Assembly: GCF_029223285.1 (NCBI RefSeq)
Contig: NZ_JARHUJ010000005.1
Span: forward strand, 496,001 to 560,000
DNA from: Paraflavitalea sp. CAU 1676
GTDB taxonomy: Bacteria; Bacteroidota; Bacteroidia; Chitinophagales; Chitinophagaceae
DNA: 64,000 nucleotides
Direction of reading: 5' to 3'
The first letter of the stretch is position 1; every line of letters starts with the position of its first letter. The notes beneath the pieces were generated by a model. It did no database searches. It saw nothing but the letters and a program-made list of their open reading frames with translations, and had not been told where the DNA came from. Made by a program: the position numbers and the translations under genes. This document shows, piece after piece, positions 2,073 to 57,068 of the stretch.

Positions 2073-2103
2073 CCCCTTTTTCTCTATGGTGATGCAGCTA
2101 TCC

Positions 2104-2173
2104 TTTTAGTAAAATATTCCATCATTTTAGTGAAACTTTACATTGTTTTCGGTAGGGCACGCCAGTACCTTTA
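2104..2173 (+). promoter_or_regulatory. Promoter and upstream activator element of the susCD operon
   Basis: A Bacteroidota-type promoter can be read: -33 ATTG at 2142-2145, 20 nt spacer, -7 TACCTTTA at 2166-2173 (consensus TAnnTTTG). Upstream lies the 14-mer AAATATTCCATCAT at 2112-2125, found again upstream of the GH106 promoter at nearly the same distance. It is flanked by direct repeats TTTTAGTAAAA (2104-2114) and TTTTAGTGAAA (2125-2135), with a period of 21 nt, about two helical turns. That layout fits an AraC-type activator dimer. The assignment to a particular regulator is inference. Confidence 0.6.
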
Positions 2174-2237
2174 GCTTGCTTGAATGGCCTTCGATTTTAT
2201 AGTTGCCATTTGTGCCTAACGATTAAAAAGATCCTTC

Positions 2238-2948: not shown

Positions 2949-3030
2949 GCATTCAATCAAGTTTCAAAAAAGCTATTCATTTATGTTCCTGGTCTGCTGC
3001 AGGAACAGGATACCAAAAACTAGATGCCAT

Positions 3031-6201: not shown

Positions 6202-6219
6202 CTGTAAACGATTGTAACA

Positions 6220-8055
6220 ATGAAAACGATCCTTGTAAATAAAATAGCTCTCACTGCCGGTGTTGCCTCATTGTTGTCGCTGGCAGCCTGTAATAAAGTG
6301 CTGGACAAGTATGATCAGAAAAGTATTCCCGGCGAATTGATCTACAACGACTCGACGCTGGTGAAACTGAATATCGACTATATCTACGAGAACAACCTTC
6401 CTGGCTGGGGTGGTAACTCCAATCTCACTGGCGGCAGTATCTCGGGTTCGGCTACGAGTTTGAGTGATGAATCGTATGGCGAAAGCAAATTCTTCGAGGG
6501 TACGGTCACTACGTCTGATGTGGGAGATATTGGCACAGGGTTAAATGCAAATAATAACTACGGAAGGATCCGTGTGATCAATATGTTGCTGCGCGATGTG
6601 GATGCGGGTATTTTACCGGCCGACACGAAGAAGCGTCTGAAGGCCCATGCCTTTTTCTTCCGTGCCTACCGCTACTTTGACCTGGTGCGTTTGTATGGTG
6701 GTGTGCCGCTGGTGACTACTGCTTTGGATGCGGTAGGAGAGCAGGCGAAGGCGGAAGCCTTGCGGCCACGTAATACAACTGCGGAGTGCATCGATCAGAT
6801 CGTAAAGGACCTCGATAGTGCCATTGCCTGGCTGCCTGCCAAGTATACGGCTTCGGCCGATTGGGGCCGCATTACGAGCGGCGCTGCGGCTGCCTTCAAA
6901 GGAAGGGTATTGATGACCTATGCCAGTCCGCAGTTCAATCCTGGTGATGATGTGGCCAGGTGGCAAAGAGCCTATGATGCCAACCTGCAGGCGAAGACCT
7001 TGCTGGATGGTGGTGGTTTTGGATTGCACGCTTCGTACGATGCTATGTGGTTCTCCGAAGTCAACAACCCGGAGGCAGTTATGATCACGGGATATAATAC
7101 TGCTACCGGCGACCAGGTGAAGAAGAACAATGGCTATGATAATTCTACCCGTCCCTCGTACCTTGGTACAGGCGGCGGCTCGAACCAGCCTTCGTGGGAG
7201 ATGGTGAAGGCTTACCCGATGAAAGACGGTAAGCTGCCGGGCGACGCTACTTCTGCGTATGCTTACTCGGATCAATTGTTTTATAAGAACAGGGATCCCC
7301 GTTTTGACAAGACGATTGGTTACAATGGCGTGAACTGGCCTATCAATGGTAATGCGAATTATAAGTTGTGGACTTATTATGCCGCCAACAAGACGGTAGA
7401 GAATAAGGCGACCAATACTGGTTTCTATACCCGCAAAGCGATCAACCCCACGGTGGATATTTCGAACGTGCAGTATAGTGGTACCGACTGGATGGAGATC
7501 CGTTATGCGGAAGTATTGCTGAACCTGGCGGAATGTGCTGCGGGTATCGGCAGGGTGGCTGCTGACCAGGAAGCTTATACCGGTTTGGTGGCAGTACGTA
7601 AGAGAGCGGGCCTTCAGGCAGGCGGAGGATCATTGTATGGTTTAAAGTCGGGCATGTCGAGGGCTGAGCTTTTCGATGCCATCCTGTTTGAGAGAAGGAT
7701 TGAATTTGCTTTTGAAGGCAAACGTTTCTGGGACCTGCGTCGCTGGAAGAAGATTGAATCGGTGTTGAACGGTACCCGCCGTCAAAAAGTAACGATCAAT
7801 CTGAAGACGGGTGCGGGCATTCCATCGGCGGCAGATTTCGCCAATCCTGCCAGTCCGAACTATCGTGATAAAGTTGACCTCGATGTTGCTTATACCAATT
7901 ATTTCGAACTGGTGTTTGGCAATCTCGATACCAAGTATGCCATCAACTGGAAGCCCGAGTATTATTTCTTCGGTATTCCACCGGCAACGATGACCAATAA
8001 TCCCAATATTGTTCAAAGCAATACCTGGGGCGGCGGTTTTGATCCTTTGAAATAG
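6220..8055 (+). CDS. SusD/RagB-family surface glycan-binding lipoprotein
   Basis: A 611-residue lipoprotein. The signal peptide ends in the lipobox LAAC, so Cys24 would be acylated and the protein carried to the cell surface. The helical TPR-like SusD fold is shown by segments such as AHAFFFRAYRYFDLVRLYGGVPL, AAAFKGRVLM and the C-terminal LFDAILFERRIEFAFEGKRFWDLRRWK, all hallmarks of SusD/RagB. It forms the lid on the SusC barrel and binds the glycan. Spacing to susC is 18 nt, a tightly coupled pair. It is somewhat longer than many family members (about 500-600 residues) but shows no break. Confidence 0.97.
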   Translation: MKTILVNKIALTAGVASLLSLAACNKVLDKYDQKSIPGELIYNDSTLVKLNIDYIYENNLPGWGGNSNLTGGSISGSATSLSDESYGESKFFEGTVTTSDVGDIGTGLNANNNYGRIRVINMLLRDVDAGILPADTKKRLKAHAFFFRAYRYFDLVRLYGGVPLVTTALDAVGEQAKAEALRPRNTTAECIDQIVKDLDSAIAWLPAKYTASADWGRITSGAAAAFKGRVLMTYASPQFNPGDDVARWQRAYDANLQAKTLLDGGGFGLHASYDAMWFSEVNNPEAVMITGYNTATGDQVKKNNGYDNSTRPSYLGTGGGSNQPSWEMVKAYPMKDGKLPGDATSAYAYSDQLFYKNRDPRFDKTIGYNGVNWPINGNANYKLWTYYAANKTVENKATNTGFYTRKAINPTVDISNVQYSGTDWMEIRYAEVLLNLAECAAGIGRVAADQEAYTGLVAVRKRAGLQAGGGSLYGLKSGMSRAELFDAILFERRIEFAFEGKRFWDLRRWKKIESVLNGTRRQKVTINLKTGAGIPSAADFANPASPNYRDKVDLDVAYTNYFELVFGNLDTKYAINWKPEYYFFGIPPATMTNNPNIVQSNTWGGGFDPLK

Positions 8056-13052: not shown

Positions 13053-16000
13053 ATGAAGCTCTTATCTGGCATTCTAACATTTTTACTGGTTGTAGTTTTT
13101 GCGCAAGCGCAGGAGACGCCGCTTCCGAGGTTGAAGGTGTCGCCCAATGGGCGGTATTTCGTTTCGCAGAACGGTGCGCCTTTCTTTTGGCTGGGCGATA
13201 CGGGCTGGCTGTTGTTCATCAAGCTAACGCGTGAAGAATCGGTACAATACCTGGAGCAACGAAAGCAACAGGGCTTTAATGTGATCCAGGTGATGGTGCT
13301 GCATGATGTACGGAAGGCGGTGAATGCCTATGGTGATTCGGCACTGGTGCATGAAGATGTGGCCAGGCCTCGTGTAACGCGTGGTAATAATGCTGCGGAT
13401 GCTGCGCAATACGATTTCTGGGATCATGTGGACTATGTGATCGACCAGGCCGCCCAGCGGGGGATCTATATGGCGCTGGTGCCGGTGTGGGGCACGAATG
13501 TGAAGAATGGCTGGGTGAAGGAGGGTGCGGCTAAACAGTATGCCAGCTTCCTGGCTAACCGTTATAAGAACAAATCGAATATCATCTGGCTGAATGGGGG
13601 AGATATTCCCGGCAGTGATTCCATCAAGGTATGGAACCAGATCGGCAGCACACTTCGATCAATCGATAAAAACCATCTTATTACTTTTCATCCCCGCGGG
13701 CGCACTACTTCTTCGCGGTGGTTCCATAACGAATCCTGGCTCGACTTCAACATGTTCCAGAGTGGGCACCGGAACTATGCGCAGGATACGAGCAAGGGGG
13801 AAACACATTATGGTGAAGACAACTGGCGATATATAGAGGAGGACAGGAAGCGGCAGCTGTTGAAACCCACGATGGATGGCGAGCCTTCGTATGAAGGCAT
13901 TCCGGAGGGTTTGCATGATACGACGGAGCGTTTCTGGAATGATGCCGATGTGCGACGGTATGCTTATTGGAATACGCTTTCGGGCGGCGCTGGGTTTACG
14001 TATGGCCATAGCGCAGTTATGCAGTTCTACCATACAGGCGATAAAGACCGTGCCTACGGCGCTAAACTATACTGGGAGCCAGCAATGCAGGCGGCGGGGG
14101 CAACCCAAATGAAATTCCTCCAACAGCTGGTGTTGTCGAAACCTTATTATGAGGCGGTGGCTGACCCTGCGCTGGTGCCCGGTAACGGCGAGCGGTATGA
14201 CAGGGTGGTGGCTTTGCGTGGTAAGGACTTCGCGTGGCTGTATACTTATACCGGAAAGCCGTTCCGGGTGGCGATGGGGGGCATTGCGGGTAAGCATGTT
14301 CGTGCTTATTGGTTTGACCCGCGTACCGGCAACCGGCAGGATGCCGGTGTGCTGGCCAATACGGGCATTGCTTTGTTTGATCCGCCTGGTGAGCCGGCGG
14401 CAGGCAACGACTGGGTGCTGATACTCGAGACCGCAAATGATATAAGGCAAGACCAGGTTTATCTGTTCTCTTCGTTTCGCGAACCGGCTACCGATGGATT
14501 GCGGTTCCTGTACAGCTATGATGGCAAGCGCTGGCAGGATGTAAACAAGACCTTTCTTACGCCCGCTGTTGGCAAGCAGAAAGTGATGCGCGACCCTTCG
14601 ATCGCGCAGGGTCCGGATGGTACTTTCCATTTGGTGTGGACCAGCAGCTGGCGCGGCGATAAAGGGTTTGGGTATGCTTATTCGAAAGACCTCGTGCATT
14701 GGAGAGAGCAACGCTTTATTCCGGTGATGGAGCAGGAGAAGGAGGTGGTGAATGTGTGGGCGCCGGAGATCTTTTATGATTCGGTGGGCAGGCAATTCAT
14801 TATCATCTGGGCTTCGGCGATTCCGGGCCGTTTTGAAAAGGGCATCGAAGAGGATAACAATAACCACCGGATGTATGTGACCACGACTGCCGATTTCAAG
14901 ACCTTTACCCCTACTAAGCTTTTCCTGGACCCTGGTTTCAGTGTGATCGATGCCACGATCGTTCAAAGAGGTGTACAGGATTATGTGCTGGTGCTGAAGG
15001 ATAATACAAGACCCAACAGGAATATCAAGGTTGCCTATGGCCGCTCGGCCCTGGGGCCTTATACCGGCGTTACCGCTGCGTTTACGGAATCCTTTACCGA
15101 AGGACCTTCGGTGGTGAGGATAGGTAGTGAATGGCTGGTGTATTTCGACGCTTACCGGTCAAAGAAGTATGATGCGGTGAAGACGACGGATTTCAAATCG
15201 TTTACGCCTGCGGCGGGAACCGTGCAGGTGCCAGAGGGGCATAAGCATGGTACGGTGTTCAGCGCATCTGAGGAAACCTTGTTTGGTCTACTGAAGCAGG
15301 ATACGGCTCATTATACCGGCGGGCAGCTGGCCAATGTTGATTATCACGACGGGCGACTGCCGCTGGCGATGGGCGTACACAATGTACAAGTGATGCGGGC
15401 GCACAGAGACCTCAAAGAGGCGGCGCATAGTTTTGGCTGGACGTATAACCACGCGCCCATGCTGGCTTACTGGAACAATACTTTTTATCTCGAGTACCTT
15501 AGCAACCCGGTGGGTGAACATGTGCCGCCGGGGCAAACCCTGCTGGTGACCTCGAAAGATGGTTATCGCTGGAATGATCCCGTGGTGCTCTTTCCCCCTT
15601 ATAAAGTGCCTGATGGGTTTAAGAAAAAGGACCGGGAAGGTGTGGCGCATGACCTGTATGCGGTGATGCACCAGCGCATGGGTTTCTATACGGCCTCTAA
15701 CAAGAAACTGCTGGCACTGGCGTATTACGGTATTGCGATGGACCAGAAAGATGATCCCAATGATGGTAATGGGGTAGGGCGTGTGGTGCGGGAGATCAAA
15801 ACAGATGGCAGTTTCGGTGCTATCTACTTTATCAGGTATAACCACGATTTTAATGAGAAGAACAGTGCTTATCCTTTTTACAAGAGCAGCGCGGATAAGG
15901 ACTTTGTAGCGGCTTGCGACGAGCTGTTGTCGAAGCCGTTGATGATGCAGCAATGGAATGAGGAGGCGGACCGGGACGATCCATTGATCCCTGTAAAGAA

Positions 16001-17072
16001 AGAATACAAGGCTTTTTGTTTTTACCACCTGCCCGATGGCAGGGTGGTGGGCCTATGGAAACATGCGCTTACTTCTATCAGTACCGACGAGGGGAAGAGC
16101 TGGCTCTTTAACCCGTTGCGGGCGCCGGGTTTCGTGAACAGTAATGCCAAGATATGGGGGCAGCGTACGGAGGATGGGAAGTATGCTACGGTATACAACC
16201 CTTCGGAGTTCCGCTGGCCATTGGCGCTTTCGGTGAGTGATGATGGACTCAACTTCAAGAACCTGCTGCTTGTTAATGGTGAGATATCGCCCATGCGCTA
16301 TGGCGGTAACTATAAATCGTATGGTCCGCAGTATGTGCGGGGTATCCAGGGAGGCGATGGCGTTCCGCCCGATGGGAAGCTGTGGGTAAGCTACAGTATG
16401 AATAAAGAAGACATCTGGGTGGCATCGGTACCGGTTCCTGTGACGGAGAAAGCGGCTGGCGCCGTGGCGGAAGATTTCTCGAAGCTGGGGGCTGGAGAGG
16501 CTCTACAATACTGGAACACCTACAGCCCCGTGTGGGCACGTACCGGGGTTGTTGATGCAGGCGGTGCACGTGCGCTGGTGCTAAAGGATGGCGATGCGCA
16601 TGACTATGCGAAGGCGGAGCGGGTGTTGCCTCCTGCCACGAAGATGCATCTTGAGTTTTCGGTGACACCGTCTCAGAACGATCATGGACAGCTGGATATT
16701 GAACTGGCCAATGCTGCAGGTACGCCGGGTGTACGGTTTACGTTTGGCGCCGATAGTGTGCTGGTGTCGAAGTCGGGTGCGCGGTACAAGACGTTGCTGA
16801 AGTACGAACCGGGCAAGCGTTACGATTTCAAGGTCGATATCAATACCGCTGCGCGTATGTATACCATGAACATTAATGGTAAGGCCATCGGTGCGCAGGT
16901 GATGTTTGCACCGCTGCATGCGGTGGAGCGTATTGTATTCCGGACAGGTGAGGTGCGCCGGTTCCCGACAGCCGATACGCCGGCTGATAATTTTACAGAC
17001 TTGCCCGATGCCGGTAGGCGCATCAAAGAGGCGGTGTTCAGTATTGGTTATTTGATTGCGAAACCCCAATAA
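13053..17072 (+). CDS. Trimodular glycosidase: GH140 apiosidase-like, GH43-like propeller, GH143-like propeller
   Basis: A 1339-residue secreted protein (signal MKLLSGILTFLLVVVFAQAQ). Module 1 (about 22-460) is a DUF4038/GH140 TIM barrel with FFWLGDTGWLLF, IIWLNGGDIPG and TMDGEPSYE, plus its C-terminal beta-sandwich (YDRVVALRGKDFAWLYTYTG). GH140 is known as the apiosidase acting on RG-II. Module 2 (about 470-755) is a five-bladed GH43-like propeller with MRDPSI (base), SVIDATI (modulator) and TEGPSVV (acid). Module 3 (about 760-1335) resembles the DHA-hydrolase family GH143 (FGWTYNHAPMLAYWNNTFYLEYL, ALTSISTDEG, SNAKIWGQRTEDG) followed by a LamG-like sandwich. From memory, the B. thetaiotaomicron GH143 is fused to GH142. 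Here it is joined to GH140, and the likely GH142 is the next gene. The GH140 call is firm, GH143 moderate, GH43-like activity unknown. Confidence 0.85.
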   Translation: MKLLSGILTFLLVVVFAQAQETPLPRLKVSPNGRYFVSQNGAPFFWLGDTGWLLFIKLTREESVQYLEQRKQQGFNVIQVMVLHDVRKAVNAYGDSALVHEDVARPRVTRGNNAADAAQYDFWDHVDYVIDQAAQRGIYMALVPVWGTNVKNGWVKEGAAKQYASFLANRYKNKSNIIWLNGGDIPGSDSIKVWNQIGSTLRSIDKNHLITFHPRGRTTSSRWFHNESWLDFNMFQSGHRNYAQDTSKGETHYGEDNWRYIEEDRKRQLLKPTMDGEPSYEGIPEGLHDTTERFWNDADVRRYAYWNTLSGGAGFTYGHSAVMQFYHTGDKDRAYGAKLYWEPAMQAAGATQMKFLQQLVLSKPYYEAVADPALVPGNGERYDRVVALRGKDFAWLYTYTGKPFRVAMGGIAGKHVRAYWFDPRTGNRQDAGVLANTGIALFDPPGEPAAGNDWVLILETANDIRQDQVYLFSSFREPATDGLRFLYSYDGKRWQDVNKTFLTPAVGKQKVMRDPSIAQGPDGTFHLVWTSSWRGDKGFGYAYSKDLVHWREQRFIPVMEQEKEVVNVWAPEIFYDSVGRQFIIIWASAIPGRFEKGIEEDNNNHRMYVTTTADFKTFTPTKLFLDPGFSVIDATIVQRGVQDYVLVLKDNTRPNRNIKVAYGRSALGPYTGVTAAFTESFTEGPSVVRIGSEWLVYFDAYRSKKYDAVKTTDFKSFTPAAGTVQVPEGHKHGTVFSASEETLFGLLKQDTAHYTGGQLANVDYHDGRLPLAMGVHNVQVMRAHRDLKEAAHSFGWTYNHAPMLAYWNNTFYLEYLSNPVGEHVPPGQTLLVTSKDGYRWNDPVVLFPPYKVPDGFKKKDREGVAHDLYAVMHQRMGFYTASNKKLLALAYYGIAMDQKDDPNDGNGVGRVVREIKTDGSFGAIYFIRYNHDFNEKNSAYPFYKSSADKDFVAACDELLSKPLMMQQWNEEADRDDPLIPVKKEYKAFCFYHLPDGRVVGLWKHALTSISTDEGKSWLFNPLRAPGFVNSNAKIWGQRTEDGKYATVYNPSEFRWPLALSVSDDGLNFKNLLLVNGEISPMRYGGNYKSYGPQYVRGIQGGDGVPPDGKLWVSYSMNKEDIWVASVPVPVTEKAAGAVAEDFSKLGAGEALQYWNTYSPVWARTGVVDAGGARALVLKDGDAHDYAKAERVLPPATKMHLEFSVTPSQNDHGQLDIELANAAGTPGVRFTFGADSVLVSKSGARYKTLLKYEPGKRYDFKVDINTAARMYTMNINGKAIGAQVMFAPLHAVERIVFRTGEVRRFPTADTPADNFTDLPDAGRRIKEAVFSIGYLIAKPQ

Positions 17073-17104: not shown

Positions 17105-18649
17105 ATGAAGCGAATCAGTTTATATTTTATTGTTCCGGTTTTGGTGGTGATTGCCGGATGTGCAACTCATCGATCCTTGTCGGTTGAGCGGGGGACTGTG
17201 TTGCAACCGGGCACTTTTAAGCATTATGTTGATTATTTCAACAAGATGGAGGATGAGAACATTGTGCAGGCGATCCCCAACGACAGCGCCTGGCAATGGA
17301 TGGAGAAAAATATTCCGTTGTTTGAATGTCCGCAGGCGAATGTGCAGGAGATCTATTATTACCGGTGGTGGACCCTGCGTAAGCATATCAAGCAAACGCC
17401 GGTTGGCTACGCCTTTACCGAATTCCTGGTGAACCGTTCATATGCGGATAAGTATAACCTGATCAGTTGCGCGCTGGGTCATCATCTCTATGAAGGCCGC
17501 TGGCTGCGCGATCAACAATACCTCGACCAGTATGTGCATGTGTGGCTGCGGGGCGACAGCGGACGGCCCATGAAGAAATTACATGGTTTCAGCAGCTGGG
17601 CGGCAGATGCCATTTACAATCGTTACCTGGTAAGTGGCAATAAGGAGTATCTCACCAACCTGTTGCCCGATCTGCAAAAAGACTATGCCGTGTGGGAAGG
17701 CGAACGCCGGTTGCCGAACGGGTTGTTTTGGCAAAGTGATGTAAAGGATGGGATGGAGGAAACGATCAGCGGCGGGCGGCGTGAGAAGAATGCGCGCCCG
17801 ACCATCAATAGCTATATGTATGGTAATGCAAAGGCGCTGGCCGCTATTGCCAGGTTGAAAGGCGATGCGGGTACGGCGGCTTTGTTTACGCGCAAGGCGG
17901 ATACGATGAAGCAACTGGTGCAGCAAAAGCTATGGAGCAGCGACCGGCAATTCTTTGAGGTGCGCAAAGAGTCGGACAGTTTGGCTCATGTAAAAGAAGC
18001 GATCGGTTTTATTCCCTGGTATTTCAATTTGCCCGACGCAGGTTATGAAGCTGCCTGGAGTACGCTCAACGATACAAAGACCTTTTGTGCGCCCTTTGGG
18101 TTGACGACGGCGGATCGCAGTCACCCTGCTTTCCGTACGCATGGCTGCTGTAAGTGCGAGTGGGATGGGGCGGTGTGGCCTTTTGCCACGGCACAAACCC
18201 TGACGGCGCTGGCCAATGTGCTGAATAATTACCAGCAACAGGTTGTGTCGAATGCGGATTGGTTCAAACAACTGAATACCTATGTAGAGTCGCAATACTA
18301 TCGCGGCCGTCCTTATATCGGCGAGTATCTCGATGAGAAAACGGGTTACTGGCTGAAGGGAGATGAAGAGCGCAGCCGCTACTACAACCATTCCACTTTC
18401 AATGACCTTATCATTACCGGCCTGGTGGGCCTGCGGCCCCGTGCTGATGACCAGATCGAGGTGAATCCGTTATTGCCAGCGGGCAAGTGGGATTGGTTTT
18501 GCCTGGACAAGGTTTGGTACCGGGGTAAATCGATCACCGTCATCTGGGATAAGGCCGGTACGAAGTATAACCGCGGCAAGGGGCTGAGTGTGTGGGTGAA
18601 TGGATTTAAGAAAGGAAGTGCCGATCAATTGCAGAAGATCGTTTTCTAA
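17105..18649 (+). CDS. Six-hairpin (MGH1-like) glycosidase lipoprotein, candidate GH142
   Basis: A 514-residue lipoprotein with lipobox IAGC (Cys19). The body is an (alpha/alpha)6 six-hairpin glycosidase fold of the MGH1-like type: YYYRWWTLRKHI, YADKYNLISCALGHHLYEGRWL, a WSDRQFFE-like strand, EWDGAVWPFATAQTLTALANVL and a final YNHSTFNDLIITGLVGLRPR. GH142, the beta-L-arabinofuranosidase of RG-II side chain D, has this fold. Its position directly after the GH143-like module suggests the same partnership, here as separate proteins. The cysteine-rich HGCCKCEW loop is notable. The fold is well supported. The GH142 label is inference from context and should be checked by profile search. Confidence 0.7.
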   Translation: MKRISLYFIVPVLVVIAGCATHRSLSVERGTVLQPGTFKHYVDYFNKMEDENIVQAIPNDSAWQWMEKNIPLFECPQANVQEIYYYRWWTLRKHIKQTPVGYAFTEFLVNRSYADKYNLISCALGHHLYEGRWLRDQQYLDQYVHVWLRGDSGRPMKKLHGFSSWAADAIYNRYLVSGNKEYLTNLLPDLQKDYAVWEGERRLPNGLFWQSDVKDGMEETISGGRREKNARPTINSYMYGNAKALAAIARLKGDAGTAALFTRKADTMKQLVQQKLWSSDRQFFEVRKESDSLAHVKEAIGFIPWYFNLPDAGYEAAWSTLNDTKTFCAPFGLTTADRSHPAFRTHGCCKCEWDGAVWPFATAQTLTALANVLNNYQQQVVSNADWFKQLNTYVESQYYRGRPYIGEYLDEKTGYWLKGDEERSRYYNHSTFNDLIITGLVGLRPRADDQIEVNPLLPAGKWDWFCLDKVWYRGKSITVIWDKAGTKYNRGKGLSVWVNGFKKGSADQLQKIVF

Positions 18650-21433
18650 ATGAACAGGATGCTGAGAACGCTGATCATATTATTGAGTTGTATGACTGTT
18701 GCGCGAGGTTTTGCGCAGCAGACGGAATTGTTGTATTTGTCGGGCACTGGTAATGATCATACCGTTGACTGGGATTTCTTTTGTACCGATGGCAGCAAGT
18801 CGGGCAAGTGGACGACTATTCCTGTGCCTTCGTGCTGGGAGTTACAGGGTTTTGGTAAATACAATTATGGCTTCGATAAGGACAGTGTGCGTGGTAAGGA
18901 AAAAGGGTTGTACAAGTATAAGTTCCGGGTGCCGGCGTCGTGGGCAGGTAAAGTAATACGCATCGTTTTCGAAGGTTCGATGACGGATACGGAGGTGAAG
19001 ATCAACGGGCAGGTGGCCGGGCCAGTACATGAGGGCGCCTTCTATGCTTTCAAATATGATATTACGTCACTTTTGAAAGTGGGCGGCGAGAACCTGTTGG
19101 AGGTTACGGTGGCCAAGCATTCGGCCAATGGGTCTGTTAACGAAGCCGAGCGCAAGGCTGACTTCTGGATCTTCGGCGGCATCTTTCGGCCGGTATACCT
19201 GGAGGCTTTGCCGGGTGTGTATATTAATGAGGTGGCTATCGACGCGCGGGCCAATGGTCAGCTTACGGCGCGCGTGGTGACGGTGAGTGCGTTGAAAGGA
19301 GATGTGTTGACTACTCAGCTTACGACTATTGACGGTAAACCGTTTGGTGCAGCTCAGACTTTGGTGCTGGGAGATGGGGTGGTGCCGGTGGTTGTTACCA
19401 ATAAATACGCAGGTGTTAAGGCCTGGTCGCCGGAGTTTCCGCGGCTGTATGAGCTGGTGTTTACGCTGGTGCGGAAGGGTAAGGCTGTACACCGGATCAA
19501 GCAAAGGATCGGGTTCCGGACGGTGGAAGTGAAACAGCGGGATGGCATATATGTGAATGGTGTGAAAGTGAAGATGAAGGGTGTGAACCGTCATTCCTTC
19601 TGGCCCAGCTCTGGCCGGACTACGAGTAAAGATATCAGTATCAAAGACGTGCTGTTGATGAAGGAGATGAATATGAATGCGGTGCGCATGAGTCATTATC
19701 CGCCCGACGGACATTTTCTCGATGTGTGCGATTCGCTGGGCTTGTTTGTAATGGATGAGCTGGCGGGCTGGCACGGGCACTATGATACGCCTACCGGTAC
19801 TAAACGGGTGGCGGAGATGCTGGCCCATGATGTCAACCATCCTTCCATTATCTTTTGGGCCAACGGCAATGAGGGCGGACATAATTTCGAGCTGGATCAT
19901 CTATTTACAGAAGGAGATATTCAGCAAAGGCCGGTGGTGCATCCCTGGCAGTTGTTTGGCGGTTTCGATACGCAGCATTATCGCGAGTTCAATTACGGGA
20001 TCGGCAATTACAATAACGGCCGGGAGATCGTGATGCCTACTGAGTTTTTGCATGGCTGGTACGACGGCGGGCATGGTGCGGGTTTGCAGGATTATTGGGA
20101 GGCGATGTGGCATGAGCCTTTGTCGGCCGGTGGCTTTCTATGGGATTTTGCAGACCAGGGCGTGGTGCGCTCCGATAAAAACGGCCTGCTCGATACGGAT
20201 AAGAACCGCGGGGCCGATGGTATTGTGGGGCCGTACCATGAGAAAGAGGGCAGCTTTTATACAATCAAAGAAGTGTGGAGCCCGGTGGTGTTGGAGCGCC
20301 GGGAGATAACGCCGCAGTTTGACGGCAGTATTCGTTTGGAGAACCGTTATTTCTATACCAATATCAATCAATGTACGTTCAGCTGGCAGCTTACGAAGTG
20401 GGTGGCTGATAAGTCGCTGGATGCGAAAGGGACGGCGAAAGCGCCCACGGTAGCGCCTGGTGAAAAAGGTGAGCTGCGATTGGTACTTCCTGCTAATTGG
20501 TCTACCTATGACGCTTTGTATGTTACAGCGACTGATCCTTATGGTAAGGAGTTGTTTACCTGGAGTTTTCCGATCGTGCGGCCGGCTACGGTGGCTGCCG
20601 CTCTGGTGGATACAACGGGTAGCGGCTCTGTGGAGCTGGATATTGTCGATTCGCTGTATCGTATTAAAGCAGGGGGCGTTGAGGTCGGTATTCATCAGCG
20701 AACCGGCTTGCTCTCGTATGTGCGCAATGGAAAAGGGGAGATTCCTTTCAATAACGGCCCGGTGTTGCAGGAGGGAGTCAATAATTTCCAGGGCTTTACG
20801 CATCGATATGATCGCGGGCGCCTTGTGATCGCTTCTAGTTTTGAGCGAAAGAACGGTTATAATACTATGGAATGGACGATCTATCCTTCGGGCTGGATCA
20901 GGCTAAAAGTTGTATATTTTCCTGACGCTTATTTTACCTCCTTTGTGGGCGTTAATTTTTCGTTCCCTGAAAACCGTATCAAAGCCGTGGAGTATATGGG
21001 AGCGGGTCCCTACCGTGTATGGAAGAACCGGTTAAAAGGCACCCGTTTCGGGGTATGGCATAAAGACTATAATGGCACGGAGACTGGCGAAAGCTGGGTG
21101 TATCCTGAGTTCAAGGGCTACCATGCGAATATGTATTGGTGTAAGTTTATTGCCGATGCGCAGTCGTTTACGGTAGTGACGGACAATGAAGATACATTCC
21201 TGCGCCTGTTTACGCCTGCATGGAAAGAAGACCAATGGAAAAACTATATGCTCTACTTTCCCTCTGGCGATATTTCTTTTATGCAGGGGATCGCGGGCAT
21301 CGGTACCAAAACGCAGCGTAATGAAACGACCGGTCCTATGGGGCTGAAGAATATCTTCTATGATTATGAGAAGGACCAGCGTCGCGCGAAAGAGCTGGTA
21401 TTGTACTTCAATTTCAATGTTACTCAACCATGA
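18650..21433 (+). CDS. Glycoside hydrolase family 2 enzyme (beta-galactosidase/uronidase type)
   Basis: A 927-residue secreted GH2 protein (signal ends ARGFAQQ). It starts at the ATG abutting the previous stop codon. Domains: sugar-binding jelly roll (about 35-185; VPSCWELQGFGKYNYGF), Ig-like domain (190-295), TIM barrel (about 300-570) with acid/base Glu408 in ANGNEGG and probable nucleophile Glu465 in MPTEFLHG, then beta-sandwiches ending in the Bgal small-chain type (ENRIKAVEYMGAGPYRVWKNR). It would remove a beta-linked terminal sugar in the periplasm. In RG-II, GH2 enzymes act on beta-galactose, beta-galacturonic acid and related residues. The sequence alone does not tell which. It overlaps the next gene by 4 nt (ATGA). 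Confidence 0.9.
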   Translation: MNRMLRTLIILLSCMTVARGFAQQTELLYLSGTGNDHTVDWDFFCTDGSKSGKWTTIPVPSCWELQGFGKYNYGFDKDSVRGKEKGLYKYKFRVPASWAGKVIRIVFEGSMTDTEVKINGQVAGPVHEGAFYAFKYDITSLLKVGGENLLEVTVAKHSANGSVNEAERKADFWIFGGIFRPVYLEALPGVYINEVAIDARANGQLTARVVTVSALKGDVLTTQLTTIDGKPFGAAQTLVLGDGVVPVVVTNKYAGVKAWSPEFPRLYELVFTLVRKGKAVHRIKQRIGFRTVEVKQRDGIYVNGVKVKMKGVNRHSFWPSSGRTTSKDISIKDVLLMKEMNMNAVRMSHYPPDGHFLDVCDSLGLFVMDELAGWHGHYDTPTGTKRVAEMLAHDVNHPSIIFWANGNEGGHNFELDHLFTEGDIQQRPVVHPWQLFGGFDTQHYREFNYGIGNYNNGREIVMPTEFLHGWYDGGHGAGLQDYWEAMWHEPLSAGGFLWDFADQGVVRSDKNGLLDTDKNRGADGIVGPYHEKEGSFYTIKEVWSPVVLERREITPQFDGSIRLENRYFYTNINQCTFSWQLTKWVADKSLDAKGTAKAPTVAPGEKGELRLVLPANWSTYDALYVTATDPYGKELFTWSFPIVRPATVAAALVDTTGSGSVELDIVDSLYRIKAGGVEVGIHQRTGLLSYVRNGKGEIPFNNGPVLQEGVNNFQGFTHRYDRGRLVIASSFERKNGYNTMEWTIYPSGWIRLKVVYFPDAYFTSFVGVNFSFPENRIKAVEYMGAGPYRVWKNRLKGTRFGVWHKDYNGTETGESWVYPEFKGYHANMYWCKFIADAQSFTVVTDNEDTFLRLFTPAWKEDQWKNYMLYFPSGDISFMQGIAGIGTKTQRNETTGPMGLKNIFYDYEKDQRRAKELVLYFNFNVTQP

Positions 21434-24400
21434 TTATGTTTCAACGATACCTTGTCCTGCTATGCGTTTTGTTCCTGAGCGCTGGTTTGCCCGTGTATGC
21501 GCAATCAGTGCAGGTGAAAGCGCTGCAATGCGAAATGCTGACGGAGCCGCTTGGCATCGATGCTGAACAGCCGCGTTTAAGCTGGCAGCTGGAAGCAACG
21601 CAACGCAATGTGGTGCAAACGGGTTATGAGATCCTGGTTGCATCTACGGCGCAGAAACTGGCGACGGGAGAGGGAGATCTGTGGACTTCCCGAAAGGTTA
21701 GCTCGGACCAGTCTGTCCTTTTGCCTTATGCGGGCAAGGCATTGGTGAGTGGCGCCGATTGTTTCTGGAAAGTAAGGGTGTATACCAATAAAGGTAATAG
21801 TGGCTGGAGTGCGCCGGCGCGCTGGTCGATGGGTTTATTGAAACCGGGCGACTGGACGGCGAAATGGATCGGCTACGACAAAGCCTCTACATGGGATAGT
21901 GTGTCGCAATGGTCGAGGTTGTCGGCCCGTTATTTTAGAAAAGGGTTTCAGTCGGAAGGTGCAGTAAAGCGGGCGACGGTCTATGTCGTTGGGCTTGGCT
22001 TGTATGAATTGTTTGTGAATGGTAAGAAGGTGGGGGACCAGGTGCTGGCGCCCAACCCAACAGATTATCGAAAATCGGTTTTGTACAATACATATGATGT
22101 TACGGGTATGGTGAAAGGTGGCGCCAATGCCATTGGCGCCGTGGTGGGGAATGGCCGCTATTTTACGATGCGGCAGGATTACAAGCCGGCAAAGATCAAT
22201 ACGTTTGGCTATCCCAAGTTATTGCTGCAACTGGTCATTGAATATGCGGATGGCTCGCGTAAAACGATCGTGAGCGATGAAAGCTGGAAGTTGCAGGTGG
22301 ATGGTCCCATCAGAACGAATAATGAATACGATGGCGAGGAATATGATGCCACGAAAGAAATGCCGGGTTGGAATAATGTGGGCTTCAACGATGTGGGCTG
22401 GATGGGGGCTGAGTTGGTTGCGGCACCGGAAGGAAAGCTGGTTGCGCAGCGGAGCCAGCCAATGAAAGTGATGGACCGGTTTAAGCCTGTTTCGGTGAAG
22501 AAGCTCGATAGTGATCGATATGTCATCGATATGGGCGTGAATTTTGCCGGCTGGTTGCAGCTGCGGGTAAAAGGCCGGCGGGGTGAGCGGGTGCAACTGC
22601 GCTTTGCAGAAAGTTTACAACAGAACGGTGAATTGTATGTGGCCAACCTGCGCGATGCGAAGGTGACGGATATTTATACTTTGAAAGGTGGGGCGGTTGA
22701 GACCTGGCACCCGGCTTTTGTGTATCATGGCTTTCGCTATGTAGAGGTGAGCGGGTTTCCCGGTGTGCCTACGGTGAATGATTTTGAAGGTCAGCAGATA
22801 TATGATGCGGTGGCTACGACAGGCCAATTCCGTAGTTCGAATGCCACGATCAATCGCATCTATACCAATGCGTGGCGGGGTATTGCTTCCAATTATAAAG
22901 GGATGCCGATCGATTGTCCGCAGCGCAATGAGCGACAGCCCTGGCTGGGCGACCGTGCTGCCGGTGCGCTGGGAGAGAGTTTTCTTTTTGACAATGCTGC
23001 TTTGTATACGAAATGGCTGGATGATATTCAGGAATCGCAAACGGCCGAAGGGGCGATCCCTGATGTGGCGCCTGCTTTCTGGAATTATTACAGCGACAAT
23101 GTTACGTGGCCGGGTGTGTATATCCTGGTGGCCCAAATGCTGTATCAACAATATGGCGATCGCCAATCGGTGGTGAAGCATTATCCATTCATGAAGAAAT
23201 GGATGGGGTATATGCAGCAGAAGTACTTGCGCAATAATATTCTTACCAAAGACAAATACGGCGACTGGTGCGTGCCGCCGGAGTCGCTGGAACTGATCAA
23301 ATCGAAAGACAGTACCCGGACTACGAAAGGTGAATTGATCGCTACTGCCTATTATTACCGGCTGTTGCGTATTATGCAGCAGTTTGCCCGGTTGCAAGGG
23401 ATAGAGGCTGATGGCGTTGCCTATGCATCGCTGGCTGCAGGCATCAAAGCCGCTTTCCAGGACAAGTTCTATAATCCAAAGACTAAATATTACGACAACA
23501 ATACGGTAACGGCCAACCTGCTGCCTTTGCATTTTGGCATTACGCCCGATAGTGCAAGGGAGGCGGTTTTCAATAATGTTTACAACAAGATCAAGATCGA
23601 AAACCATATGCACATCAGCACCGGTGTCATTGGTACGCAGTACCTGATGCGCGGGTTATCGGCCTTTGATCGCAGCGATATTGCCTATACGCTGGCTTCC
23701 AACACGAGCTATCCCAGTTGGGGTTATATGGCCAGGAACGGCGCTACGACGATCTGGGAGTTGTGGAATGGTAATACGGCCAATCCGCAAATGAACTCAC
23801 AAAACCATGTGATGCTGCTGGGTGATCTGCTGACCTGGTTCTATGAGCACCTGGCGGGCATCCGCAGCGATGATTCGGCCGTGGCTTTCAAAAAGATCAT
23901 TATGCGGCCTGATCGAATTGATGGGCTCGACTCGGTCTATGCACGCTATCGCACCCCTTATGGTGAGGTGCTGAGCCATTGGAAGGTTGGGGCGGCGCGC
24001 AATGGTTTCAGGTGGCGTATCCGTATTCCTGCAAACACGACGGCTGAAGTATATGTGCCTGCTCATGATGCCAGTGATGTGTTGGAAAGGGGTAAGGTGA
24101 TAGGTGACCGTTCTGGCGTTCGTTTTGTGCGGACCGACGGCCGTTACCAGGTGTTTGCCATTGGCTCCGGCAGTTATGATTTTAGTGTTACTGTTCCTTA
24201 CAGGAAAGGTATAGTGGAAGATGTATTTGTTTTTGACAGGGCTTCTTTTCCCGAAAGTCATGCCTCAACGATCGTACAAACCCCCAAAGGGTTGCTGACT
24301 GCCTGGTTTGGTGGCACGAAGGAAGGGTATAAAGATGTGTGCATCTGGACCAGTGCACTGGAAAAGGGGCATTGGACAAAACCTGTGATGGTAGCTGATG

Positions 24401-25239
24401 GCATCATCAACGATACTACGCGCTTTCCCTGTTATAATCCTGTTTTGTACCAGGCGCCCAACGGCGAGCTGTTGCTGTTTTACAAGATCGGTTCGCGGGT
24501 GGCTACCTGGAAGGGGTATATGAAGCGATCCAAAGACCATGGTGTTACCTGGGGGCCGCGGGAAGAATTGCCCGAAGGATTCCTGGGCCCTGTTAAGAAT
24601 AAACCTCTTCTATTTGGCAATGAACTGTGGTGTGCTTCGAGTACGGAAGGCAATGGCTGGAGGGTTCATTTTGAAGTAACGAGCGATTGGGGACGTACCT
24701 GGAGAAAGGTGGGGCCTATCAATGATGGTAAAACGATCAATGCGATACAGCCCAGTATCCTCACGTATGCCGACGGCAGGTGGCAGGTGCTGTGCCGCAG
24801 CCGCAACAGGGCCGTGGTAGAGTCGTGGTCGGCCGATGGGGGAAAAACCTGGTCGCCCATGGTGCCCAGCAATTTGCCGAATAATAATTCCGGTACCGAT
24901 GCGGTGACGCTCAAAGACGGACGGCAGCTGCTGGTATATAATCATGTGTTGCCACCCGGTAAGGAAGCCAAGGGGGCGCGCACGCCGCTCAATGTGGCCA
25001 TTTCCAAAGATGGCAAGAACTGGTTTGCGGCGCTGGTGCTGGAAGATTCGCCGGTGAGTCAATATAGCTATCCTTCCGTTATTCAAACGCCGGATGGTAT
25101 GGTGCATTTCGTGTACACCTGGCGGCGGGAGCGGATCAAATATGTGAAGGTCGATCCTTCGAAACTGGTGCTGAAACCTATTGTGAATGGTGTGTGGCCT
25201 GGCGCCCGTACCGAAACACTCAAACCAAGTGATGATTAA
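21430..25239 (+). CDS. GH78 alpha-L-rhamnosidase fused to a sialidase-like propeller
   Basis: A 1269-residue secreted protein. Residues about 24-915 are a complete GH78: N-terminal Fn3-like region (LGIDAEQPRLSWQLE), rhamnose-binding beta-sandwiches, and an (alpha/alpha)6 barrel with DCPQRNERQPWLGD (Asp495, general acid Glu501) and TTIWELWNG (base Glu). Residues about 930-1255 are a six-bladed BNR_2/sialidase-like propeller: SFPESHASTIVQTPKG, Asp boxes SKDHGVTW, TSDWGRTW, SADGGKTW and SKDGKNW, TRFPCYNPV for the first arginine, and YSYPSVIQTPDG. Sialidase-like enzymes act on 2-keto-3-deoxy acids. RG-II side chain C is alpha-L-Rha-(1->5)-Kdo, so one protein might cleave both bonds. That substrate is inference. 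A free-standing GH78 is known to work without the propeller. Confidence 0.88.
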   Translation: MIMFQRYLVLLCVLFLSAGLPVYAQSVQVKALQCEMLTEPLGIDAEQPRLSWQLEATQRNVVQTGYEILVASTAQKLATGEGDLWTSRKVSSDQSVLLPYAGKALVSGADCFWKVRVYTNKGNSGWSAPARWSMGLLKPGDWTAKWIGYDKASTWDSVSQWSRLSARYFRKGFQSEGAVKRATVYVVGLGLYELFVNGKKVGDQVLAPNPTDYRKSVLYNTYDVTGMVKGGANAIGAVVGNGRYFTMRQDYKPAKINTFGYPKLLLQLVIEYADGSRKTIVSDESWKLQVDGPIRTNNEYDGEEYDATKEMPGWNNVGFNDVGWMGAELVAAPEGKLVAQRSQPMKVMDRFKPVSVKKLDSDRYVIDMGVNFAGWLQLRVKGRRGERVQLRFAESLQQNGELYVANLRDAKVTDIYTLKGGAVETWHPAFVYHGFRYVEVSGFPGVPTVNDFEGQQIYDAVATTGQFRSSNATINRIYTNAWRGIASNYKGMPIDCPQRNERQPWLGDRAAGALGESFLFDNAALYTKWLDDIQESQTAEGAIPDVAPAFWNYYSDNVTWPGVYILVAQMLYQQYGDRQSVVKHYPFMKKWMGYMQQKYLRNNILTKDKYGDWCVPPESLELIKSKDSTRTTKGELIATAYYYRLLRIMQQFARLQGIEADGVAYASLAAGIKAAFQDKFYNPKTKYYDNNTVTANLLPLHFGITPDSAREAVFNNVYNKIKIENHMHISTGVIGTQYLMRGLSAFDRSDIAYTLASNTSYPSWGYMARNGATTIWELWNGNTANPQMNSQNHVMLLGDLLTWFYEHLAGIRSDDSAVAFKKIIMRPDRIDGLDSVYARYRTPYGEVLSHWKVGAARNGFRWRIRIPANTTAEVYVPAHDASDVLERGKVIGDRSGVRFVRTDGRYQVFAIGSGSYDFSVTVPYRKGIVEDVFVFDRASFPESHASTIVQTPKGLLTAWFGGTKEGYKDVCIWTSALEKGHWTKPVMVADGIINDTTRFPCYNPVLYQAPNGELLLFYKIGSRVATWKGYMKRSKDHGVTWGPREELPEGFLGPVKNKPLLFGNELWCASSTEGNGWRVHFEVTSDWGRTWRKVGPINDGKTINAIQPSILTYADGRWQVLCRSRNRAVVESWSADGGKTWSPMVPSNLPNNNSGTDAVTLKDGRQLLVYNHVLPPGKEAKGARTPLNVAISKDGKNWFAALVLEDSPVSQYSYPSVIQTPDGMVHFVYTWRRERIKYVKVDPSKLVLKPIVNGVWPGARTETLKPSDD

Positions 25240-26104
25240 CGGACCTGCTTTTATTGCCGGAGTTTTGTTTAGCCTGCTATTGCTGCCCGGGATTGCGCCC
25301 GCTCAGCAGCACCCTCGCTATAAGATCGCGCTCATAGACCTGATGCTGTTGAAGCGGCAGAAGCTGGGTGCTTTGCAACTCACGAAGGACCTTGGTGCCG
25401 ATGGGGTGGAGGTCGACATGGGCGGATTGGGCAAGCGGGTGACGTTCGATAACCAGCTGCTCAATGATTCTGTACGCCAACTATACCTCAACAAGATCAA
25501 AGAACTCAATATCGAGATCCCTTCGCTGGCGATGACTGGCTACTATGCGCAGTCGTTTTGTGAAAGGGATGAATACAAGCAAAGCATTGAAGACTGCATT
25601 AAAACGATGCAGTTGATGCAGGTGAAAGTGGCCTTTTTACCCATGGGTGTGCAGTGCGACCTGGTGAAGCAACCCGGCCTGCGCGCCAAAGTGGTGGAAA
25701 GGCTGAGAGAGGCCGGTAAGATGGCCGTGGCCGCCGGTGTAGTGATCGGTATCGAGACACCGCTATCGGCTGAAGAGCAGGTGAAGGTACTGAAGGAGAT
25801 CGGCTCGCCGGGTATCAGGATCTACTTCAATGTAGCCGATGCTATTGGCGCGGGGCGTGATGTGAGTAAGGAGTTGAAGACGCTGGGGCGTCACCGGATC
25901 TGCCAGATTCACATCACCAATAAGGATGGGGTTTGGCTGGAGAACGATCCTGCGGTTGATATGAAGAAGATCAAACAAACACTCGATAAAATGAAATGGA
26001 GCGGCTGGCTGGTGGTGGAAAGAAGCCGTGATGCGAAGCAGCCCACTAATGTGAAGGTGAACTATGGGGCGAATACGAAGTATTTGAAGTCGGTGTTTCA
26101 GTGA
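25232..26104 (+). CDS. Secreted sugar isomerase/epimerase-like TIM barrel
   Basis: I start at the ATG at 25232, which overlaps the GH78 stop by 8 nt and gives a signal peptide (MINGPAFIAGVLFSLLLLPGIAPAQQ). The mature protein of about 265 residues is an AP-endonuclease-2/xylose-isomerase-like barrel. Its likely metal ligands remain: Glu in VIGIETPL, Asp in YFNVADA, His in CQIHITNK and Glu in WLVVERSRD. Cytosolic relatives isomerise or epimerise sugars or sugar phosphates. A periplasmic location is odd, since phosphorylated sugars should not occur there, so it may act on free keto or uronic sugars released by its neighbours. Function unassigned. Confidence 0.8.
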   Translation: MINGPAFIAGVLFSLLLLPGIAPAQQHPRYKIALIDLMLLKRQKLGALQLTKDLGADGVEVDMGGLGKRVTFDNQLLNDSVRQLYLNKIKELNIEIPSLAMTGYYAQSFCERDEYKQSIEDCIKTMQLMQVKVAFLPMGVQCDLVKQPGLRAKVVERLREAGKMAVAAGVVIGIETPLSAEEQVKVLKEIGSPGIRIYFNVADAIGAGRDVSKELKTLGRHRICQIHITNKDGVWLENDPAVDMKKIKQTLDKMKWSGWLVVERSRDAKQPTNVKVNYGANTKYLKSVFQ

Positions 26105-28060: not shown

Positions 28061-28110
28061 ACGGGGGCCTCTAAATTTTCTTTAATGGACATCATTAATC
28101 ATTGCCTGAT

Positions 28111-30276
28111 ATGAAAAAATATTTCCTGTTTGCTGTCTTGACCCTTTTTGTTGCCCATGCCATGTATGCGCAACAGGCTACCTGGATCTGGTATCCGGGC
28201 GACTATGAGATCTGGTTGAGTAACAAGATGCAGAACCGCCGTACCGAGAAGGGAGCCTTTTTCCCTCCGTTCTGGAGGATGGACGCGCATTATGTGTTGA
28301 TGGATTTTCACAAAGAGTTCAACCTGACGGAGCCTGAAGAGATGCACATTTATGCCGAAGGAAATTACAATGTAAAGCTCGACTCGAAGATGCTGCCGGG
28401 TACGCCTGCTATCGTAACGATCCCGGCCGGTAAACACAAGATCAATATAAAAGTCCATAACCAGGATAAGGTGCCGGCCATTTATGTAAAGGGACGCACG
28501 ATCGTTTCGGATGCTTCGTGGCTGGTTACTTATGAAGACAAGGAGTGGATCGATGAAACGGGCAAGGTGAGTGACCAAAGCGGCACTACCTGGCTTACGG
28601 CGGGCAGTTGGAATTTCAATGACCCGCAGACACTCCCTTCGGAGTTCCGGCTATCACTGGCTTCGGCGGAACCGGTGGCGGTGGAACGGAAAGGGAACAG
28701 CCTGCTGGTAGATTTCGGGAAAGAGACCTTCGGGTATTTATCCCTGCGTGGTGTTCGTGGCAAAGGACCTATTACGATCTACTATGGTGAATCGAAAGAA
28801 GAGGCCCTATCGCCCGAAGGTTGTGAGACACTCGATAAGCTGGAGGTGGAGGGTAACGGCAAGGGTGCTATTATGACCAATTTGTCGAAAGCTTTCCGCT
28901 ATGTAAATATTGAAATGGGCCCTGGTGTTGGTGTCGACAGCGTTTCGATGTTTTATGAATACCTGCCGGTAAAGCAGCGGGGCAGTTTCAAGTGCTCGGA
29001 CGAGCAGGTGAACAGGATATACGAGGTGTCGAAATATACTTTGCAACTGAATACGCGGGAGTTCTTCATCGATGGCATCAAACGCGACCGCTGGATATGG
29101 AGTGGCGATGCTTACCAAAGCTATCTCATGAACTATTACCTGTTCTTCGATGAGGCTTCGGTGCGCAGAACATTGCTATCCTTGCGGGGTAAGGATCCGG
29201 TGAGCAGCCATATCAATACCATCATGGATTATACCTTTTACTGGTTTCTCGGCATCTACGATTATTATACCTATACGGGCGATAAGGCTTTCCTGACACA
29301 ATTGTATCCCCGTATGCAAAGTTTGATGGAGTACTGCCTTGGCCGTCGTAATAAAGATGGTTTGATGGAAGGGCTGTCGGGCGATTGGGTGTTTATTGAC
29401 TGGGCAGAAGGCCTGAGTAAGAAAGGGGAAGTGAGTTTTGAACAAATGCTGTTGTGCCGCAGCCTGGAAACAATGGCGCTTTGTGCGGGCATTGCCAACG
29501 ATGAAACAGGTGCTGCAAAATATCAGCAACTGGGCGCCGATCTGCGCAAGAAGCTATTTTCTATCTACTGGAACGATGCGAAGCAGGCCCTGGTACATAG
29601 CCGGGTAAATGGTATACCGGCCGATCATGTTACAAGGTATGCGAATATGTTTGGCATCTTCTTCAACTATTTTACGCCGCAACAAGCGGAGGGCGTTAAA
29701 ACCCATGTATTGCTGAACAAGGAGGTGCCGAAGATCACTACTCCTTATATGCGCTTTTACGAGCTGGAAGCGCTTTGTGCCATGGGCGAGCAATCGTATG
29801 TATTGAAAGAGATGAAGGACTACTGGGGCGGTATGCTGAGCCTCGGCGCTACCTCCTTTTGGGAAGAATACAATCCGGCTAAAAAGGGTGTGGAGCATTA
29901 TGCCATGTATGGCCGGCCATTCGGCAAGAGTTTGTGCCATGCCTGGGGGGCGAGTCCGCTGTATTTGCTGGGCCGTTATTACCTCGGAGTGCAGCCAACT
30001 TCGCCGGGTTATAAGACCTATTCGATCACGCCGGTATTGGGTGGTTTGCAGTGGATGGAGGGCGATGTGCCGGTGCCGGGTGGTGCAGTGAAAATGTATT
30101 GCAGCGCTACTAAATTGCAAGTGAAAGGTGCGGCCGGCGTTGGTACTTTACGTTTCAATAGTGCCTCCAGGCCGACCTGCAAAACGGCTGCGATTCAATC
30201 GTTGGGCAGCAACCGCTATGAATTGACAGTGCAACCCGGGGTGGAGTATGAGGTGGCTTATAAAGCCAGTAAGTAA
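28111..30276 (+). CDS. GH78-type alpha-L-rhamnosidase, short form
   Basis: A 721-residue secreted protein, started at the ATG at 28111 (signal MKKYFLFAVLTLFVAHAMYAQ). It has N-terminal beta-sandwiches (WIWYPGDYEIWLSNKMQNRR, LLVDFGKETFGYLSLRGV) and an (alpha/alpha)6 barrel with FFIDGIKRDRWIWSGD (Asp321) and ATSFWEEYNP (Glu585), followed by HAWGASPLYLLGRYYLGV. The acid motif differs from the classical DCPQRxER form, as is usual in this short subgroup. From memory, the RG-II enzyme BT1001 belongs here. It would remove alpha-L-rhamnose from side chains A or B after outer sugars are trimmed. It lies 50 nt after the GH141-like gene and 28 nt before GH127. Confidence 0.88.
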   Translation: MKKYFLFAVLTLFVAHAMYAQQATWIWYPGDYEIWLSNKMQNRRTEKGAFFPPFWRMDAHYVLMDFHKEFNLTEPEEMHIYAEGNYNVKLDSKMLPGTPAIVTIPAGKHKINIKVHNQDKVPAIYVKGRTIVSDASWLVTYEDKEWIDETGKVSDQSGTTWLTAGSWNFNDPQTLPSEFRLSLASAEPVAVERKGNSLLVDFGKETFGYLSLRGVRGKGPITIYYGESKEEALSPEGCETLDKLEVEGNGKGAIMTNLSKAFRYVNIEMGPGVGVDSVSMFYEYLPVKQRGSFKCSDEQVNRIYEVSKYTLQLNTREFFIDGIKRDRWIWSGDAYQSYLMNYYLFFDEASVRRTLLSLRGKDPVSSHINTIMDYTFYWFLGIYDYYTYTGDKAFLTQLYPRMQSLMEYCLGRRNKDGLMEGLSGDWVFIDWAEGLSKKGEVSFEQMLLCRSLETMALCAGIANDETGAAKYQQLGADLRKKLFSIYWNDAKQALVHSRVNGIPADHVTRYANMFGIFFNYFTPQQAEGVKTHVLLNKEVPKITTPYMRFYELEALCAMGEQSYVLKEMKDYWGGMLSLGATSFWEEYNPAKKGVEHYAMYGRPFGKSLCHAWGASPLYLLGRYYLGVQPTSPGYKTYSITPVLGGLQWMEGDVPVPGGAVKMYCSATKLQVKGAAGVGTLRFNSASRPTCKTAAIQSLGSNRYELTVQPGVEYEVAYKASK

Positions 30277-52967: not shown

Positions 52968-52980
52968 CTCTATAAACGGG

Positions 52981-54945: not shown

Positions 54946-54978
54946 TGGTTGTATTGCGATCATGATTCGTAATAAATG

Positions 54979-56511: not shown

Positions 56512-56611
56512 ACGTCAATAGTTGTTTGAATCTTGATCAGGGATGGGCTGGTAGACAGCCGGTACTGAAAATAAGATGAAATAATAAGACTAAAGGTGAT
56601 ATGCGATAGGG

Positions 56612-57058: not shown

Positions 57059-57068
57059 GAATTGCCGA

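Follow-up and report, generated by a model that had tools for sequence, protein, structure and literature searches.

Analysis of a 64,000-nucleotide stretch of the genome of Paraflavitalea sp. CAU 1676 (contig NZ_JARHUJ010000005.1, positions 496,001 to 560,000; hereafter, the window) revealed a gene (21430..25239, plus strand) encoding a GH78 alpha-L-rhamnosidase fused to a sialidase-like propeller. Judging from its sequence and genomic context, this fusion is likely to be a two-domain exo-enzyme for side chain C of the plant pectin rhamnogalacturonan II (RG-II), removing rhamnose (Rha) and then 3-deoxy-D-manno-octulosonic acid (Kdo). The proposed pathway includes the following steps: (i) the substrate would be the alpha-L-Rha-(1,5)-Kdo-(2,3)-GalA structure of side chain C (GalA, galacturonic acid), (ii) the GH78 domain would take off the terminal rhamnose and thereby expose Kdo, and (iii) the propeller would release Kdo by hydrolysis of its bond to the backbone galacturonic acid. 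The propeller would represent a divergent, GH33-like clade of the sialidase fold, with Tyr1214 as the putative nucleophile, Arg1123 and Arg1184 as candidate carboxylate-binding residues, either Glu965 or Asp969 as the possible acid/base, and His944 and Gln1107 in the places of a sialidase Arg and Glu.

Domain organization and predicted fold of the fusion protein

The gene is a single uninterrupted frame of 1269 amino acids that starts with ATG and contains no internal stops. The N-terminus of the protein is hydrophobic and, judged by eye, similar to a signal peptide. The GH78 part (residues 29-885; 21514..24084, plus strand) is matched above cut-offs by five Pfam models, namely the Ig-like N domain, the N domain, the concanavalin-like domain, the six-hairpin catalytic domain, and the C domain; the match to the catalytic domain (E 9.3e-107) is far beyond chance. 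The protein contains both acidic catalytic motifs of GH78, DCPQRNERQPWLGD (residue 495) and TTIWELW (residue 773). The BNR_2 propeller follows at residues 955-1226 (24292..25107, plus strand; Pfam E 2.2e-85). The original prediction, made from the DNA sequence, of a complete GH78 domain and a BNR_2 propeller in one open reading frame is thus borne out. The TRFPCYNPV motif, also part of that prediction, is present at residues 997-1005. The prediction had further counted four Asp boxes; three of them, at residues 1034, 1084, and 1134, are strict and spaced by 50 residues, and the fourth, SKDGKNW at residue 1192, is degenerate and short by one residue.

The structure of residues 888-1269 was predicted by AlphaFold2 using 79 relatives (mean predicted local distance difference test score, pLDDT, 91.0; predicted template modelling score, pTM, 0.87). 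The 50 PDB matches listed by Foldseek are mostly sialidases (best E 3.9e-15, identity 11-18%); among the others are the designed metalloprotein 4j9t, a Pseudomonas aeruginosa pseudaminidase (2w38), and 5hx0, an uncharacterized protein of Dyadobacter. Both the structure prediction and the comparison with PDB folds agree with the sialidase-like fold assigned earlier to the propeller. An 830-residue model of both domains (mean pLDDT 82.2, pTM 0.84) suggests that the junction between GH78 and the propeller is structured.

RG-II utilization locus in the window

The fusion gene resides in a locus of the RG-II type. Upstream of it on the plus strand is a gene (13053..17072) encoding an apiosidase-type (GH140) domain fused to the N-terminal propeller half of the B. 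thetaiotaomicron protein BT_1020 (PDB 5mqr), the half of the GH143 type, a hydrolase of 3-deoxy-D-lyxo-heptulosaric acid (Dha); residues 746-1327 of its product match residues 22-600 of 5mqr with E 2.6e-229. The C-terminal half of BT_1020, of the GH142 beta-L-arabinofuranosidase type, is encoded by a separate gene (17105..18649, plus strand), whose product matches residues 619-1102 of 5mqr (E 1.7e-227). Downstream, on the same strand, are a close relative of BT1001 (28102..30276; E 4.8e-290 to PDB 3cih), the rhamnosidase acting on rhamnosyl apiose (Rha-Api), and a GH106 rhamnosidase-type gene (37653..41159). A SusC/SusD pair (2983..8055, plus strand) and genes of the GH141 and GH127 types complete the set. 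The RG-II-type enzymes and the SusC/SusD pair support the RG-II context of the fusion. The structure 5mqr is BT_1020 and is named GH142 (PMC7263609), GH143 is given as a family of Dha hydrolases (PMC7761036), 3CIH is BT1001 (PMC4690510), and BT1001 cleaves Rha-Api (PMC7939467).

With the Rha-Api and Dha linkages assigned to other enzymes of the window, the GH78 domain and the propeller are left for the Rha-Kdo and Kdo-GalA linkages. Side chain C carries Kdo (PMC12168206); the terminal sugars of side chains C and D are alpha1,5-linked Rha and arabinofuranose, respectively (PMC12282258). A metaproteomics study names 'Kdo hydrolase (GH33)' and GH78 rhamnosidases as needed for RG-II degradation (PMC11214529), and a table of carbohydrate-active enzyme activities has Kdo hydrolase under GH33 (PMC9120202). 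BT_1019 is listed as GH78 (PMC6828813), and a citrus-pectin polysaccharide utilization locus of B. xylanisolvens includes GH28, GH33, GH43, GH78, and PL1 (PMC4769552).

The fusion gene shares 4 bases at its start with an upstream GH2-type gene (18650..21433, plus strand), and a possible ATG of the next gene at 25232 overlaps its stop; these overlaps place it in a tight operon. The next gene (25232..26104, plus strand) encodes a secreted-looking xylose-isomerase-like TIM barrel.

Occurrence of the fusion and co-occurrence with GH143

Comparison of 39 related genomes, including that of the window, revealed near-full-length fusions in four others: two of the same genus, G395 (79% identity, 1296-aa frame) and G398 (74%, 1275-aa frame), as well as G401 (66%, 1269 aa) and G403 (59%), whose match is flagged for one stop. 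In this set, the fusion is absent from G396 and G397 of the same genus, and thus occurs in two of the four other genomes of the genus that were searched. The presence of the full-length fusion in two further genomes of the genus excludes an assembly error; the fusion is real. In all five genomes of the genus, the pattern of GH143 presence is identical to that of the fusion.

A scan of named genomes with the propeller alignment yielded at least 584 confirmed stretches, from which the best 80 were kept; these 80 loci lean toward close relatives. GH78 at 50% identity or above was found in 63 of them. It is fused in frame to the propeller in 32 loci, with three of the fused frames (L051, L062, and L105) starting at a contig edge, and is encoded by a separate gene upstream of the propeller on the same strand in 31 loci, with a gap of 148-1648 bp by match ends. 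Of the 80 loci, 77 also contain, at E 1e-15, one or more of the other gene types found in the cluster of the window, SusC and SusD uncounted.

To describe co-occurrence, we drew 395 genomes from the phylum and counted the propeller at 53% identity or above, a cut chosen after the list was seen, and GH143 as PF24067 matches with E < 1e-90; weak PF24067 matches (E 1e-4 to 6e-4), seen in four genomes, did not enter the GH143 count. The propeller was found in 20 genomes and GH143 in 21; both are present in 19 genomes, only the propeller in G249, only GH143 in G190 and G031, and neither in 373 (Fisher p about 4e-29, a value that overstates the evidence because genomes are not independent). By printed coordinates, the two genes are no more than 20 kb apart in 18 of these 19, the exception being G269. 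Thus, the propeller clade at this cut tracks the RG-II marker GH143. The propeller lies in a frame of fused length in 4 of its 20 genomes (G000, G150, G238, and G394).

In a quick tree of 88 propellers, built with L105 excluded, the 35 fused ones require 5 changes compared with a mean of 28.3 for shuffled labels, and the fusion may have had a single origin. A relative of the TIM barrel is present in 51 of the 80 loci. In L105, from a Prevotellaceae metagenome-assembled genome (MAG), a single 1507-codon frame (3-4523) comprises GH78, the propeller, and the TIM barrel, which suggests that the TIM barrel belongs to the same pathway as the other two. The propeller also appears in records titled Williamsia (Actinomycetota) and Lentisphaerae MAGs (L058 and L079), with a Bacteroidota-like RG-II cluster in L058; these may be misbinned contigs or cases of transfer. 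A second, more distant group of propellers (L122-L124; 35-38% identity in the alignment) was observed in Bacteroides-like genomes, where it lies outside this locus; this group is devoid of Arg998.

Putative active site of the propeller

Searching PDB with the propeller profile, we obtained sialidase matches, starting at E 1.2e-8, that were too partial for catalytic mapping; therefore, the propeller was aligned by hhalign with three RIP-motif sialidase homologs from the genome of the window (L125, L126, and L130; probability 97.1, with shallow profiles of effective depth, Neff, of about 2). The reference residues are the Arg triad, the Tyr, the Glu, and the acid/base Asp of sialidases. On this mapping, Tyr1214 is aligned to the catalytic Tyr, Arg1123 to the second triad Arg, and Arg1184 to the third one. 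The acid/base loop is shortened and aligned with gaps, and holds Glu965 and Asp969. In the alignment of the window with 79 of the 80 loci (L105 excluded), His944, Glu965, Asp969, Arg998, Gln1107, Arg1123, Arg1184, and Tyr1214 are all invariant (80 of 80).

The original prediction pointed to the TRFPCYNPV arginine motif. The profile alignment does not place its arginine in the sialidase triad: Arg998 aligns with none of the three triad arginines, and represents an extra invariant residue, which may or may not stand in for the first one in space. In the usual chairs, the glycosidic bond of alpha-Kdo is axial and the carboxylate equatorial, with the reverse arrangement in alpha-sialosides; this reversed anomeric geometry is a possible reason for the altered active site.

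Possible fate of Kdo and Dha in related genomes

Downstream of the propeller in the relatives, two modules were observed (e.g., L095:11145-18792, L043:11053-13577, L046:11078-20226, and L116:3384-6000). Module K consists of an SSF symporter and a lyase of the dihydrodipicolinate synthase (DHDPS) family, the latter found in 20 of the 80 loci. Module D includes an iron-containing alcohol dehydrogenase (Fe-ADH), a DHDPS-family lyase, PdxA, a DUF1537-type kinase, and an SSF symporter, with the kinase and PdxA found in 21 loci. One or both modules are present in 30 loci, and both in 11. The lyases show similarity to N-acetylneuraminate lyase, DHDPS, and YagE, a probable 2-keto-3-deoxygalactonate aldolase; for the lyase of module K, this similarity is weaker. 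DUF1537 kinases include D-threonate kinase (PMC10971088), and PdxA2 acts in organic-acid catabolism (PMC9997740). Thus, these modules may catabolize Kdo and Dha, the latter through D-threonate; cleavage of Kdo would then yield pyruvate and D-arabinose.

Alternative functions

Several observations weigh against the proposed action on side chain C. In the hhalign mapping, His944 falls at the first triad ('RIP') Arg, a placement obtained via a 3-residue ungapped extension past the alignment start, and Gln1107 falls at the catalytic, Tyr-activating Glu; at the level of sequence, the nucleophile and two triad arginines expected for a sialidase are thus kept, and the first arginine is replaced. The loss of the arginine triad, which the original prediction had named as counting against it, is therefore seen in part. 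The propeller occurs without this GH78 in 17 of the 80 loci, mostly from Dyadobacter, Spirosoma, and Larkinella, with L079 and L080, counted among these, ending early at contig ends. At a cut of 50% identity, GH143 accompanies the propeller in only 20 of 26 genomes, and among the six added ones (G377, G162, G019, G190, G122, and G254) it is present in G190 alone. In the genome of the window, the module K lyase has no close relative (best match 21%, L136), and no DUF1537 kinase was found, an empty answer that shows little as it came with no positive control; the lyase cassettes were thus not detected there as far as searched, the search having covered these two components and not PdxA, Fe-ADH, or the module D lyase. 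The organism may therefore leave the released Kdo unused or process it in a different way.

The replacement of two expected sialidase residues would fit a non-catalytic propeller, a lectin-like RG-II binder that holds the rhamnosidase on its substrate; non-catalytic Asp-box propellers exist, and the weak PDB sequence matches include such a case, the lectin 6t96. We consider this unlikely, as the acidic residues of the loop, together with Tyr1214, Arg1123, and Arg1184, show no variation across the 80 sequences, and the propeller has its own gene in 31 of the 63 GH78-bearing loci and occurs in a further 17 loci lacking GH78. The breadth of the GH78 family leaves some room for another rhamnoside (Rha-Api, rhamnogalacturonan I, or a flavonoid) as the substrate of the first domain, in which case the protein would not be dedicated to side chain C, and GH78 relatives near 50% identity are indeed found in genomes devoid of GH143, e.g., G007, G039, and G347. 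This is quite unlikely given that Rha-Api is covered by the separate close relative of BT1001 and that this GH78 is fused to or beside the propeller in 63 of the 80 loci. Dha is likewise a 3-deoxy-2-keto acid, and the propeller might remove it from side chain D instead of Kdo; yet 19 of the 20 propeller genomes contain GH143, the Dha hydrolase family (PMC7761036), which would make the propeller redundant, and the propeller is fused to a rhamnosidase, although the sugar at the end of side chain D is arabinofuranose (PMC12282258), so that we regard removal of Dha as improbable. Most improbable is an ordinary sialidase for sialic acids: although the nearest folds are sialidases, their identity to the propeller is only 11-18% among the 50 listed matches, the Arg and Glu are replaced, the three RIP-motif homologs (L125, L126, and L130) are encoded elsewhere in the same genome, and the locus targets plant pectin. 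The action on Rha and then Kdo of side chain C is probably right, as originally predicted, on the evidence of the RG-II locus, the propeller fold, the widespread fusion or adjacency of the two domains, the co-occurrence with GH143, the separate genes for Rha-Api and Dha, the lyase cassettes in 30 of the 80 relatives, and the published GH33 and GH78 activities; the residue argument is the part of the prediction that fails.

Comparison with known systems

The RG-II system of B. thetaiotaomicron (Ndeh et al. 2017, as described in citing papers) is reported to act on the same substrate class with the same family names, GH33 and GH78, by which the two systems are likened; in the window both domains are in one polypeptide. 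In two Bacteroides-like genomes (G206 and G222, genus code g20), relatives of GH78 (57%) and the propeller (58%) are encoded by separate neighboring genes. BT_1020, a GH143-GH142 protein (5mqr), resembles the fusion in that a hydrolase for a terminal sugar is joined to a hydrolase for an acidic linker sugar; its fusion serves side chain D. Both halves of BT_1020 have close relatives in the window, where they are split, and it is the side-chain-C pair that is fused instead. BT1001 (3cih) shares GH78 and RG-II with the fusion, but its close relative is the other window protein (28102-30276), and the PDB matches of the fused GH78 are 6i60, 3w5m, and 6gsz, not 3cih. With the canonical GH33 sialidases (1eus, Neu1, and Neu2), the propeller shares its predicted fold, the Asp boxes, the catalytic Tyr, and two arginines of the triad; unlike them, it has His944 for the RIP Arg, Gln1107 for the Glu, a shorter acid/base loop, and the extra invariant Arg998.

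The combination of Rha and Kdo removal is less new than had been implied: a GH33 Kdo hydrolase and GH78 rhamnosidases are in print for RG-II, so the two activities are probably already known and the novelty is modest. No report of the fusion was found in the accessible text of the openly licensed papers searched. The new features are the fused form, which mirrors the side-chain-D fusion of BT_1020, the divergent active site, and the neighboring lyase cassettes in relatives. A single fused enzyme stripping side chain C, if confirmed, would be a reagent. Experiments would be best spent on the divergent active site, whose invariant His and Gln substitutions offer a direct test of how a sialidase fold is retuned from sialic acid to Kdo. 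Removal of Kdo by a sialidase-like enzyme would match its addition by the sialyltransferase-like GT29 protein RCKT1, with which plants attach Kdo (PMC12168206). The lyase cassettes provide a testable answer on the fate of Kdo and Dha.

More tentatively, and with more doubt than confidence, we propose that this clade of propellers forms a branch of its own within the sialidase fold, specific to Kdo and with a rebuilt site (Arg to His, Glu to Gln, and the extra Arg998), physically coupled to the uncapping rhamnosidase and, in relatives, to the Kdo and Dha catabolic cassettes. Together, these would take two rare 3-deoxy-2-keto acids of plants all the way to central metabolism. No description of such a complete route was found in the literature searched.

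Other features of the window

The scan for promoters and terminators gave counts near the shuffle mean (11 vs 7.7 and 8 vs 7.5, respectively) and was uninformative. PADLOC gave no matches, PHROGs gave one weak match to a family of unknown function, and the viral fold library gave distant propellers only. The gene at 13053-17072 is another uncommon RG-II fusion, combining the apiosidase type of side chains A and B with the Dha-hydrolase type of side chain D; the same fusion is present in the same-genus genome G395 as a 1340-aa frame. An arabinose cluster (51993-61007) adjoins the RG-II locus and has, on the minus strand, a GH43 gene and two genes of the arabinofuranosidase type, followed by an FGGY kinase, a class II aldolase-type gene, and L-arabinose isomerase.

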